Assembly: GCA_013823365.1 (NCBI GenBank)
Contig: PNMC01000001.1
Location: 1 to 64,000 of the forward strand
DNA length: 64,000 nucleotides
DNA from: Parvibaculum sp.
Lineage (GTDB): Bacteria; Pseudomonadota; Alphaproteobacteria; Parvibaculales; Parvibaculaceae
Direction of reading: 5' to 3'
This document shows, one piece after another, positions 8,145 to 13,600 of this stretch. Position 1 is the stretch's first letter; each line of letters opens with the position of its first letter. Below the pieces are notes generated by a model, which searched no databases, was not told the origin of the DNA, and worked only from the letters and a program-made list of their open reading frames with translations. The translations under genes were made by a program, and so were the position numbers.

Positions 8145-9341
8145 ATGACTGCAGCGAATGACCGGGACTTCGTGCCCATGCGGAACGGCATCTTCATGGC
8201 GCCGTTCCATCCGACCGACCGCGACCCGACGGAAGCGCTCCAGCGCGACCTCGAACTGATCGAGCATCTCGACCGCTTCGGCTACGAGGAGGCCTGGATT
8301 GGCGAGCATCACTCGGCAGGCTTCGAAATCATTTCGAGCCCCGAACTCTTCATTGCCGCCGCCGCCGAACGCACCGGCCGCATCAAGCTCGGCACCGGCG
8401 TCGTCTCGCTGCCCTACCACAACCCGCTGATGACGGCGAACCGCATTCTTCAGCTCGACCACATGACGCGCGGCCGCGTCATGTTCGGCGTCGGCCCGGG
8501 CCTGCTGCCCTCCGACGCCATGATGCTTGGCATCGATCCGATGACGCAGCGCGACCGCATGCTCGAAGGCCTGCTCGTCATCATGCGTCTTTTCAATGGC
8601 GAGGTCGTGACCGAGAAGACCGACTGGTACAATCTCGTCAATGCGCGCGCGCATCTGACGCCCTACACGCATCCGCACCCGGAAATCTGCGTCGCGAGCG
8701 CGGTGAGCCCGTCGGGCGGGCGCGCCGCCGGCAAATATGGCCTCGGCATGCTCTGCGTCGCCGCGACCAATGCCGACGGCTTCGACGCGCTCTCGACCAA
8801 CTGGCAGATCGCCTGCGAAATCGCCGCCGAAAGCGGGCAGGTGATGGACCGGGGCAAGCTGCGCCTCGTTGGCCCGGTGCATATCGCCGAGAGCCGGGAA
8901 CAGGCCCGCAAGAATGTCGAATGGGGCCTCGACAAATGGCGCGAATATTTCGCCAATCTCAATCCGCTCGCACCGCCGCTGCCCGAAGGCATGGATCCTG
9001 TCGATGCGATGATCGCCAGCGGCCAGGCCGTAATCGGCACGCCGGACGATGCGATCGAACAGATCAAGCGGCTTCAGGCGAAGCAGGGCCAGTTCGGCGC
9101 CTTCCTCCAGCTCGCGCATAACTGGGCGCCCTGGGATGCGACGGTGAATTCCTACCGCCTTTGGGCCGAGCATGTTGCGCCGGTCTTCAAGCGCGCCAAT
9201 GAAAGCCGTCAGGCGTCTTATGAATGGGTCACGGAGAATGGCGCGAACTTCATGGGCCAGGCCATGCAGGCCGCCGGCGCCATGATCCAGAAGCACGCCG
9301 ATGAACGCGCCGCCAAGGCAAAGAAAAAGGCGGGCGAGTAG
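8145..9341 (+). CDS. LLM class flavin-dependent oxidoreductase
   Basis: MRNGIFMAPFHPTDRDPTEALQRDLELIEHLDRFGYEEAWIGEHHSAGFEIISSPELFIAAAAERTGRIKLGTGVVSLPYHNP. Confidence 0.9.
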   Translation: MTAANDRDFVPMRNGIFMAPFHPTDRDPTEALQRDLELIEHLDRFGYEEAWIGEHHSAGFEIISSPELFIAAAAERTGRIKLGTGVVSLPYHNPLMTANRILQLDHMTRGRVMFGVGPGLLPSDAMMLGIDPMTQRDRMLEGLLVIMRLFNGEVVTEKTDWYNLVNARAHLTPYTHPHPEICVASAVSPSGGRAAGKYGLGMLCVAATNADGFDALSTNWQIACEIAAESGQVMDRGKLRLVGPVHIAESREQARKNVEWGLDKWREYFANLNPLAPPLPEGMDPVDAMIASGQAVIGTPDDAIEQIKRLQAKQGQFGAFLQLAHNWAPWDATVNSYRLWAEHVAPVFKRANESRQASYEWVTENGANFMGQAMQAAGAMIQKHADERAAKAKKKAGE

Positions 9342-9400: not shown

Positions 9401-10606
9401 CTACGCTGACAAGGCGACCTTGACCCATCCGGCCTGACGGCGGTCGAAGGACTTGTAGGCCTCGAGCACATCGATCAGCGGTTCGCGATGCGTCAGCACC
9501 TCTTGCGGATCGACGGCGCCTTCCCGCACCCATTCCACGATGCGCGGGACATATTTCCGGTGATTGCAGTTGCCCATATTGACCGTGACGTTCCGGTTCA
9601 TCGCCTTGCCGATGGGGAAGGAGTGGACGTTCGGCGGATAGACGCCGATGATGCCGAGCGTACCCGCCTTGGCCAGAGCGTCGATCGCCCAGTCGAGAAC
9701 GAGTGTCGGGGCGTTGCCGGGCACCCAGAGGTCGCCATCGGGATTCCGCTCGGGTGCTGCCTGCCGGGATTCCCTTTCATGGCGCTCGCGGTCGAGATCT
9801 TCCGTACCCGGGCCGCTCTCAGGCATGACCGCGTCGACCCCCACGGCATCGATCGCCCGGTCCGTGCCGATGCCGCCCGTGAGCTCCCTTATCGCCGCGA
9901 CCGGATTTTCCCTTGAGAAGTCGACGATCTCCGCTCCCTGCTGCGCCGCCATCTCGAGCCTGTCGGGCAGGCAATCTACGGCAATGACGCGGGATGCACC
10001 CATTAGCTTGGCGGCGAGAATGGCGAACTGGCCCACGGGCCCGCACCCCCAGACCGTCACCGTGTCGCCATCCGACACCTCCGCGCCGAAATAGCCGGTT
10101 GGAAAGATATCGGAAATCATGATCGCCTGATCGTCGCTGACTTCCTCCGGCAATTTGACGAGGCCGACATTGGCGAAGGGGATGCGTCCATATTCCGCTT
10201 GCAGCCCGTTGAAAGAGCCGGTGGCTTCCGGCCCGCCGAAAAAGGATGTTCCGCCCTGGTGTCCGTTGGGATTGGCCGTGTCGCACTGCGCGTAATATCC
10301 GGTGCGGCAATAAGAACAGGAGCCGCAAGCGATGGTGGATGGCACGACCACGCGGTCGCCGCGCTTGAGGTTGCGCACATTCGAGCCCGTTTCCTCGACG
10401 ATTCCGACCGCTTCATGCCCGAGGACGAGACCGGGCTTCATGCCGGGTATGGTGCCGCGGATCATGTGAAGGTCCGTTCCGCAGATGGCGCTGGACGTGA
10501 TCCGGATGATGGCATCGGTTGGCTCCTGGATCTCCGGCTCGGCCACGTCATCGAGCCTCACATCGCCGATATCGTGAAATACCACCGCTTTCATTTTCAT
10601 CTCCAC
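9401..10606 (-). CDS. zinc-dependent alcohol dehydrogenase (MDR superfamily)
   Basis: MKAVVFHDIGDVRLDDVAEPEIQEPTDAIIRITSSAICGTDLHMIRGTIPGMKPGLVLGHEAVGIVEETG...CGSCSYCRTGYYAQCD. Confidence 0.92.
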   Translation of the reverse strand: MEMKMKAVVFHDIGDVRLDDVAEPEIQEPTDAIIRITSSAICGTDLHMIRGTIPGMKPGLVLGHEAVGIVEETGSNVRNLKRGDRVVVPSTIACGSCSYCRTGYYAQCDTANPNGHQGGTSFFGGPEATGSFNGLQAEYGRIPFANVGLVKLPEEVSDDQAIMISDIFPTGYFGAEVSDGDTVTVWGCGPVGQFAILAAKLMGASRVIAVDCLPDRLEMAAQQGAEIVDFSRENPVAAIRELTGGIGTDRAIDAVGVDAVMPESGPGTEDLDRERHERESRQAAPERNPDGDLWVPGNAPTLVLDWAIDALAKAGTLGIIGVYPPNVHSFPIGKAMNRNVTVNMGNCNHRKYVPRIVEWVREGAVDPQEVLTHREPLIDVLEAYKSFDRRQAGWVKVALSA

Positions 10607-10669: not shown

Positions 10670-10694
10670 AACAGAAACCGCGTGCTTATGTTCC
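10670..10694 (-). promoter_or_regulatory. putative EcfG-type general stress promoter upstream of the alcohol dehydrogenase
   Basis: Minus strand GGAAC-ATAAGCACGCGGTTTCT(17)-GTT. Confidence 0.65.
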
Positions 10695-10707: not shown

Positions 10708-10732
10708 GGAACAATTGTTGTCGCCTCCGGTT
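10708..10732 (+). promoter_or_regulatory. putative EcfG-type general stress promoter for a small RNA
   Basis: GGAAC-AATTGTTGTCGCCTCCG(17)-GTT, followed by hairpins and a terminator with no ORF. Confidence 0.65.
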
Positions 10733-10738
10733 TGATGC

Positions 10739-10825
10739 GCACGGCGTCTGACGCCGTGATGCGGTCCCGGACCGCATCTCCCCCTCCCTGACTTGCCCCG
10801 CCTCTCGGAGGCGGGGCCTTTTCAT
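10739..10825 (+). ncRNA. candidate stress-induced small RNA (about 85 nt)
   Basis: Stem-loops CACGGCGT-CTG-ACGCCGTG (10740-10758) and GATGCGGT-CCCGG-ACCGCATC (10758-10778), single-stranded TCCCCCTCCCTGACTT linker, terminator GCCCCGCCTC-TCG-GAGGCGGGGC + CTTTTCATTTCTT. Confidence 0.6.
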
Positions 10826-10830
10826 TTCTT
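10795..10830 (+). terminator. intrinsic terminator of the candidate sRNA
   Basis: 10-bp GC stem with T-rich tail only in the + direction. Confidence 0.75.
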
Positions 10831-11010
10831 GCTCTTCTTCTGCGGCTTGTCCTTGCGCTTGGTCGAGGCCATTTTCTCGAGTTCCTTCTTGCTCATGGAC
10901 TCGGCCATCGATTTCGACGCGCCTTTGAGCTCGCTTTTCTTCTTGTCGCCGCGTTTTGCGGCCAGCGCCGCGCCGGCCGCCATTTGTTGGGACTTGGATT
11001 TCGCGGGCAT
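10822..11010 (-). CDS. small lysine-rich protein, DUF3008-like
   Basis: MPAKSKSQQMAAGAALAAKRGDKKKSELKGASKSMAESMSKKELEKMASTKRKDKPQKKSKK. Confidence 0.8.
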   Translation of the reverse strand: MPAKSKSQQMAAGAALAAKRGDKKKSELKGASKSMAESMSKKELEKMASTKRKDKPQKKSKK

Positions 11011-13015: not shown

Positions 13016-13600
13016 TCAGTCGCGCGGAAGAGGCCGCGATTTCCGGTCGAGAATTTTCTGAAGGCCTGTGCGCCCTCGATTGACGCGGCTCTTGATCGTA
13101 CCGAGCGGGCACTCGCAGATCGAGGCCGCTTCCTCATAGCTCAGCCCGATCCCTCCCACGAGCACCACGGCGTCCCGCTGGTCGCAGGGAAGGGCGGCGA
13201 GAGCCCCCTTCACATCGTCGAGCTCCACCGACCATTCCTGTGCGCCATCGCTGCCGATGATGTCGCTCGGATCGGCCTCGCTCGGCATTTCGCGCTTGCG
13301 CCGCCGGTACTCGGAATAGAATGTGTTGCGCTCAATCGTGAACAGCCACGCACGCAGATTCGTCCCGCGCTGGAAGCGATGCACATTCGCCAGCGCCTTG
13401 AGCAGCGTTTCCTGGACGAGATCGTCGGCATCGGCGGGAGACTTGGTGAGGCTAAGGCCATAGGCCCTGAGGGCGGGAAGAAGATCGAGTATCTCTTCTT
13501 CCAGCGCTTCTGCTGTCGCCGCGGTCGAGGTGGAAGTGCGAGGCTCGTCTTCTTCGTTTGATCGGATATGACGTTGGGCTGCAGCATTGTGTGCGGCCAT
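13016..13600 (-). CDS. EcfG-like (ECF15-type) RNA polymerase sigma factor
   Basis: EILDLLPALRAYGLSLTKSPADADDLVQETLLKALANVHRFQRGTNLRAWLFTIERNTFYSEYRRRKREMP...ALAALPCDQRDAVVLVGGIGLSYEEAASICECPLGTIKSRVNRGR; start chosen downstream of GGAAC-N17-GTT. Confidence 0.88.
   Translation of the reverse strand: MAAHNAAAQRHIRSNEEDEPRTSTSTAATAEALEEEILDLLPALRAYGLSLTKSPADADDLVQETLLKALANVHRFQRGTNLRAWLFTIERNTFYSEYRRRKREMPSEADPSDIIGSDGAQEWSVELDDVKGALAALPCDQRDAVVLVGGIGLSYEEAASICECPLGTIKSRVNRGRTGLQKILDRKSRPLPRD

Follow-up and report, generated by a model that had tools for sequence, protein, structure and literature searches.

The small RNAs that most resemble the one described here belong to the alpha-r8 family (MmgR, SisA–D; Rfam suhB/mmgR, RF00519), an anti-Shine-Dalgarno (anti-SD) family whose links so far are to nutrient storage and carbon starvation. 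In these RNAs a single-stranded UUUCCUCCCU stands between a hairpin and the terminator, and their single or main copy lies beside an N-formylglutamate amidohydrolase gene, with extra copies located anywhere; SisA, which has the same core, pairs close to the start codon of mRNAs and so represses them (PMC12559287). MmgR of Sinorhizobium meliloti is given RpoD/RpoN promoters (PMC7143759). GsrN is the sRNA that has been studied in the alphaproteobacterial stress response, and its recognizable sequence relatives (BLASTn) are limited to Caulobacteraceae. Features that further mark GsrN are processing to a stable 5' isoform and pairing with the katG leader. Its six-C element lies in a loop near the 5' end, its 5' half (first 58 nt) suffices for function, and homologs outside Caulobacteraceae have been assigned chiefly by promoter, position and expression (PMC5869019), with closeness to the core sigT/ecfG-nepR-phyR locus as one criterion. 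Direct control by sigma-EcfG is also described for ReC64, a ncRNA encoded at the phyR-ecfG1 locus (PMC3892343). We propose that positions 10708–10827 (+ strand) of the 64,000-nucleotide Parvibaculum sequence analyzed here (the window) are probably an independent sRNA gene belonging to the general stress regulon, induced by EcfG and specifying a trans-acting, anti-SD RNA with an alpha-r8-type seed. This reading is based on the anatomy and fold of the locus, on the conservation of its promoter, hairpins and linker, and on motif kinship.

The predicted sRNA of about 85 nt (10738–10822, +; conserved in L003 and L004) would start 6–8 nt past the GTT of an EcfG-type promoter (10708–10732, +), which consists of GGAAC (10708–10712), a 17-nt spacer and GTT (10730–10732) preceded by a G, in agreement with the sigma-EcfG consensus GGAAC-N16/17-(C/G)GTT (PMC3892343, PMC4814048). 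The preliminary description had noticed this promoter, two perfect stem-loops shortly after it and an unpaired linker complementary to Shine-Dalgarno sequences, and all three were borne out. Hairpin 1 (10740–10758, +; CACGGCGT-CTG-ACGCCGTG) starts 7 nt after the promoter and hairpin 2 (10759–10777, +; ATGCGGTC-CCG-GACCGCAT) lies directly 3' of it, each with 8 bp and a triloop, and the C-rich linker with the anti-SD element (10778–10794, +; CTCCCCCTCCCTGACTT) is unpaired in the fold. An intrinsic terminator follows (10795–10827, +), composed of a hairpin with a 10-bp stem (10795–10817, GCCCCGCCTC-TCG-GAGGCGGGGC) and then CUUUUCAUUU; it is the strongest among 10 detected in 6 kb (5.4 expected). 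Its U tract (UUUUCAUUU) is only moderate to short. The fold of 10737–10822 has an energy of −47.7 kcal/mol, compared with −31.8 ± 2.9 for shuffled sequences (z −5.5; 0/200 shuffles match). The locus had also been said to contain no ORF; an ATG frame of 18 codons (10735–10791) does exist, its first codon coinciding with or slightly preceding the point where the transcript is expected to begin. Conservation was seen for no reading frame, this one being lost in two relatives (start lost, 1-nt indel), and a coding role was therefore rejected.

The C-rich 13-nt stretch before the terminator, CCUCCCUGACUUG, is the core sequence of the alpha-r8 RNAs (MmgR, SisA–D). This alpha-r8-like core, CCTCCCTGACTTG (10783–10795, +), the likely target-binding seed, has its sole copy in the window here and recurs identically in alpha-r8 copies elsewhere (e.g., L220 and L221). 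It matches the alpha-r8 copies of the same genus, CCTCCCT(A/G/T)nACTTG (e.g., L179, TTTCCTCCCTGAACTTGCCCCGCCTCC); when the cores are set side by side, the sRNA reads CCCCCUCCCUGACUUG, L179, an alpha-r8-type copy from the same genus, TTTCCTCCCTGAACTTGCCCCGCC, and L221, from another genome, TTTCCTCCCTGACTTGCCCG. The pattern CCTCCCTN(1-4)ACTTG matched 61 times in 27 genomes and its reversed control 49 times, that is, about 1.8 chance matches per genome, and the probability of finding the motif in a random 15-position linker is thus about 4e-6. The 10-mer CCCCCUCCCU, unpaired in the fold, is identical to the alpha-r8 UUUCCUCCCU at 7 of 10 positions; it starts with CCC rather than UUU, and the ACUU(G)-terminator arrangement of alpha-r8 is present as GACUUG followed by the 10-bp terminator, with hairpin 2, of other sequence, upstream.

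The general plan is likewise that of alpha-r8: about 80 nt, one or more hairpins, a single-stranded CCUCCCU-nACUUG anti-SD core with an intrinsic terminator right after it, and several siblings per genome with different promoters. The predicted sRNA differs in having two strong 8-bp hairpins in place of the weak GCCC-GGGC hairpin, a short U tract where the canonical copy has a 7-U tail, and an EcfG promoter, unlike MmgR. No N-formylglutamate amidohydrolase gene was found among the genes typed around it, and the genome has its canonical alpha-r8 at a separate locus (G000:C46:17034-17107, 78 bits). An Rfam search, suggested beforehand as a check, gave no match in the window at the gathering cut-off and no match to a GsrN-named family; the best family below the cut-off (41 bits) was suhB/mmgR (28.8 bits, E 1.7e-4), the sRNA being its second-best place among the matches listed for the genome. 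Several plain terminators without the core score approximately 29–31 bits for this family. The covariance score is therefore not discriminating by itself, and we relied on the linker sequence. Rfam matches to anti-hemB, Atu_C7 and toxic-sRNA were weak and terminator-driven, and these identities were rejected. Judged by its sequence, the predicted sRNA is alpha-r8-like with a replaced 5' half, and not a family member by the Rfam criterion.

In most Parvibaculum genomes the exact alpha-r8 core CCTCCCTAAACTTGGGC is also found in a second element located between genes (L149, L150, L152, L155–L157, L159, L160, L162, L163, L165, L169, L171–L173, L175 and L178; e.g., G014:C1:3425897-3425910, −). This element lies downstream of a terminator-like hairpin (AAGCAAGG...CCTTGCTT), adjoins GTGTTCCCTC / GGGACTATAGCCA motifs and has a weak terminator and no EcfG box; in G014 it is situated between a permease gene and a DUF1467-like/glyoxalase-family pair (names by reading of the translations alone). 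No EcfG box was found before the canonical or the second alpha-r8 copies of Parvibaculum.

The sRNA had initially been described as a possible GsrN analog within a general stress response gene cluster. The surroundings do form a stress-regulon cluster (7–16 kb), with genes for a luciferase-like monooxygenase, a zinc-dependent alcohol dehydrogenase (9401–10606, −; Pfam ADH_N, ADH_zinc_N), a DUF3008 protein, an FMN reductase, an SDR oxidoreductase, an EcfG-type sigma factor, DUF4142, CinA and DUF892 proteins. All eight strict boxes (GGAAC-N16/17-GTT) of the window fall inside it (0.35 expected there), a number attained in 0/500 resamplings, with one palindromic site counted twice. One of them (10670–10694, −; strict-box scan) is the likely promoter of the alcohol dehydrogenase gene, which is divergent from the sRNA. 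The sigma factor gene (13016–13600, −; Sigma70_r2/r4 and PhyR_sigma2), 2.2 kb from the sRNA, has its own box (13674–13650), and its product shares 45% identity with the core-locus EcfG. That core locus (nepR, phyR, ecfG and a PhyK-like kinase gene), by contrast, is on contig C52 of the same assembly and not in the window. At the core locus, a strict EcfG box (L110:7314-7338) points from the phyR side to the PhyK-like kinase gene about 350 nt away and is a positional candidate for a leader or sRNA. The palindromic strict box of the window (8182–8208) falls in the 5' part of the region that codes for the luciferase-like monooxygenase and is unchanged in both relatives that carry the sRNA, possibly owing to coding constraint or as an internal bidirectional promoter. 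In these relatives, the box upstream of the second ecfG is also palindromic, GGAAC-N17-GTTCC (L111:10543-10569 and L112:15620-15646), and could, from its sequence, fire both ways; its + direction enters a GC-rich intergenic stretch with possible hairpins.

As regards GsrN itself, the Caulobacter RNA shares with the predicted sRNA an EcfG/SigT promoter, a size of about 100 nt or less, a C-rich target-binding stretch and a stress regulon, here a cluster with an ecfG paralog. A true GsrN ortholog or functional equivalent would depend on EcfG and use its C-rich stretch to activate stress mRNAs, katG for instance; in favor of this identity, homologs beyond Caulobacteraceae were likewise assigned largely by promoter, position and expression (PMC5869019). 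However, the C-rich stretch of the predicted sRNA is in the 3' linker, past both 5' hairpins (loops CTG and CCG), rather than in a 5' loop, phyR, nepR and ecfG of the core locus lie elsewhere, and the linker sequence matches alpha-r8. We consider this identity unlikely. The analogy first drawn thus stands for promoter, size, stress cluster and C-rich anti-SD element, but not for kinship or architecture; the predicted RNA may still be a functional analog, as a stress-sigma-dependent C-rich sRNA. ReC64 and the RpoE2-predicted rhizobial sRNAs are comparable in their direct sigma-EcfG control, but the accessible parts of the reports mention an alpha-r8 core for none of them.

A DNA homolog search of 27 genus genomes found the sRNA locus in three, that is, in 2/26 congeners (G002 and G012) and in no others, which counts against our preferred reading; the source assembly is 89% complete (482 contigs), and the comparisons that follow rest on three orthologs. 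GGAAC and GTT are kept at exactly N17 in the three species, whereas only 5/17 and 7/17 spacer positions of the two relatives are identical to the window. The linker (UCCCCCUCCCUGACUUG), whose conservation had been suggested as a check, is identical in all three, including UCCCCCUCCCUGACUU. Hairpin conservation in close relatives had been set beforehand as a test on which the reading could fail: in the two carrier relatives the hairpins are kept together with the linker and promoter boxes. Sequence differences are confined to loops, U-A to U-G changes and the basal pair of hairpin 1 (C-G, A-U and one mismatch), and 98.7% of pair cells are retained, leaving all three hairpins intact, with covariation uninformative at n=3. 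In both relatives (L111 and L112), the alcohol dehydrogenase gene is absent at the locus and the luciferase gene lies immediately upstream; the promoter is thus conserved despite a rearranged upstream neighbor, which we count in favor of our reading. The conserved EcfG-type promoter, the right size, the anti-SD element and the stress cluster support the interpretation as a putative sRNA gene.

The DUF3008 gene (10822–11010, −; Pfam PF11450, 100 bits), encoding a small basic protein, is convergent with the sRNA and has a stop codon that overlaps the U tract of the latter. The two could form a cis-antisense pair, in which the convergent mRNA would extend through the sRNA gene and thereby include the perfect complement GGGAGGGGGA, one transcript controlling or sponging the other. 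Past the shared hairpin, the minus strand is AAGUCAGGGAGGGGGA, with no U tract, and the sRNA was found only beside DUF3008, in three of the 5/41 family genomes with this gene and in none without it. However, DUF3008 has no adjoining sRNA in G007 and G014 and no EcfG box upstream, and the pairing leaves the alpha-r8 core unexplained, making this an improbable account of the locus. Convergence, in which an unrelated lineage-specific EcfG sRNA has acquired an anti-SD C-rich linker and resembles alpha-r8 functionally rather than by homology, would fit the lack of alpha-r8 similarity in the 5' half, the Rfam score below the cut-off and the narrow distribution; the shared part nevertheless extends past the anti-SD core, taking in (G)ACUUG and the beginning of the terminator, a stretch not required for pairing with Shine-Dalgarno sequences, and we infer descent from alpha-r8, convergence being just as improbable as the antisense pair. 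Least probable is that nothing is transcribed from this promoter, the hairpins being intergenic terminators or attenuators and the box a chance match, for although GC-rich DNA yields strong hairpins and strict boxes are expected about 2.4 times per 64 kb, the boxes are conserved over a diverged spacer, eight cluster in 9 kb, and no upstream + strand gene in the window needs a terminator here, since the neighboring gene is divergent.

A scan of GTDB genomes for an EcfG box with an alpha-r8 core gave 21 matches. Those with alpha-r8-type terminators came from Parvibaculum (two), Methylobacterium (five), Lichenibacterium (one), a Hyphomicrobiales metagenome-assembled genome (MAG) and an alphaproteobacterial MAG, the records carrying orthologs being Parvibaculum/Parvibaculaceae MAGs. 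Matches in Paenibacillus, Streptomyces, archaea and other distant groups lacked such a terminator and were discarded as apparently due to chance. The Methylobacterium and Lichenibacterium genomes have 6–22 alpha-r8 matches each (E <= 1e-4; L204–L311), a large family expansion. Because alpha-r8 is multi-copy and tens of chance box-plus-core matches were estimated collection-wide, we used an enrichment test rather than counting single matches: ascertaining loci were removed from the alpha-r8 loci of these genomes, and strict boxes were counted in the 105 nt upstream. A box was present at 5/47 loci, whereas 89 permuted motifs averaged 0.18 and never exceeded 2; the rate is not to be extrapolated, the genomes having been selected for one box-plus-core locus. 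Sigma-EcfG-type promoters before some alpha-r8 siblings of Methylobacterium and Lichenibacterium (L189, L196, L203, L194, L270, L292, L232 and L186) therefore look real at the sequence level. At these loci GGAAC-N17-GTT lies about 40–55 nt ahead of the alpha-r8 core, followed by a terminator, and some have two 5' hairpins; they differ from the Parvibaculum sRNA in their canonical or near-canonical seed UUUCCUCCCU with its hairpin and in their high copy number. In a genome of another family, L182 (G345:C1:2209712-2209791, +) combines GGAAC-N17-GTT with a hairpin, ATCCTCCCTGAACTTG and a strong terminator, and may be an alpha-r8 sibling driven by EcfG in a lineage other than Parvibaculum and Methylobacterium. 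In the literature searched, we found no report of EcfG-promoter-driven alpha-r8 RNAs.

For the Parvibaculum sRNA, we envisage that stress frees sigma-EcfG through the core PhyR-NepR switch on the other contig, with the local EcfG paralog possibly also acting on the promoter, and that transcription of the RNA would begin at about 10738. Two rigid 5' hairpins would expose the unpaired 3' linker UCCCCCUCCCUGACUU ahead of the terminator, and the linker, as an alpha-r8-type seed, would pair with the G-rich ribosome-binding sites of selected mRNAs, mostly lowering their translation under stress, as SisA does. Hfq probably takes part in this pairing, but its binding may be weak because the U tract is short, unlike the canonical 7-U tail. 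A target prediction, proposed as a further check, was run on the cluster genes of the window and none stood out, the best p value (0.09, DUF892) not being significant.

More broadly, the general stress sigma factor may have repeatedly recruited alpha-r8 siblings, in Parvibaculum, Methylobacterium, Lichenibacterium and perhaps others, a proposal that we hold with slightly more doubt than confidence. The result would be a post-transcriptional stress arm with the same seed as the carbon/nitrogen-storage sRNAs, and therefore with a common target pool and common sponges, and GsrN would be one of several solutions. The enrichment in Methylobacterium allows the question to be tested in a genus that is genetically tractable and for which ecfG mutants are known. 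If true, having a stress-sigma promoter ahead of an alpha-r8-type seed would tie the general stress response to an anti-SD RNA family that is class-wide.
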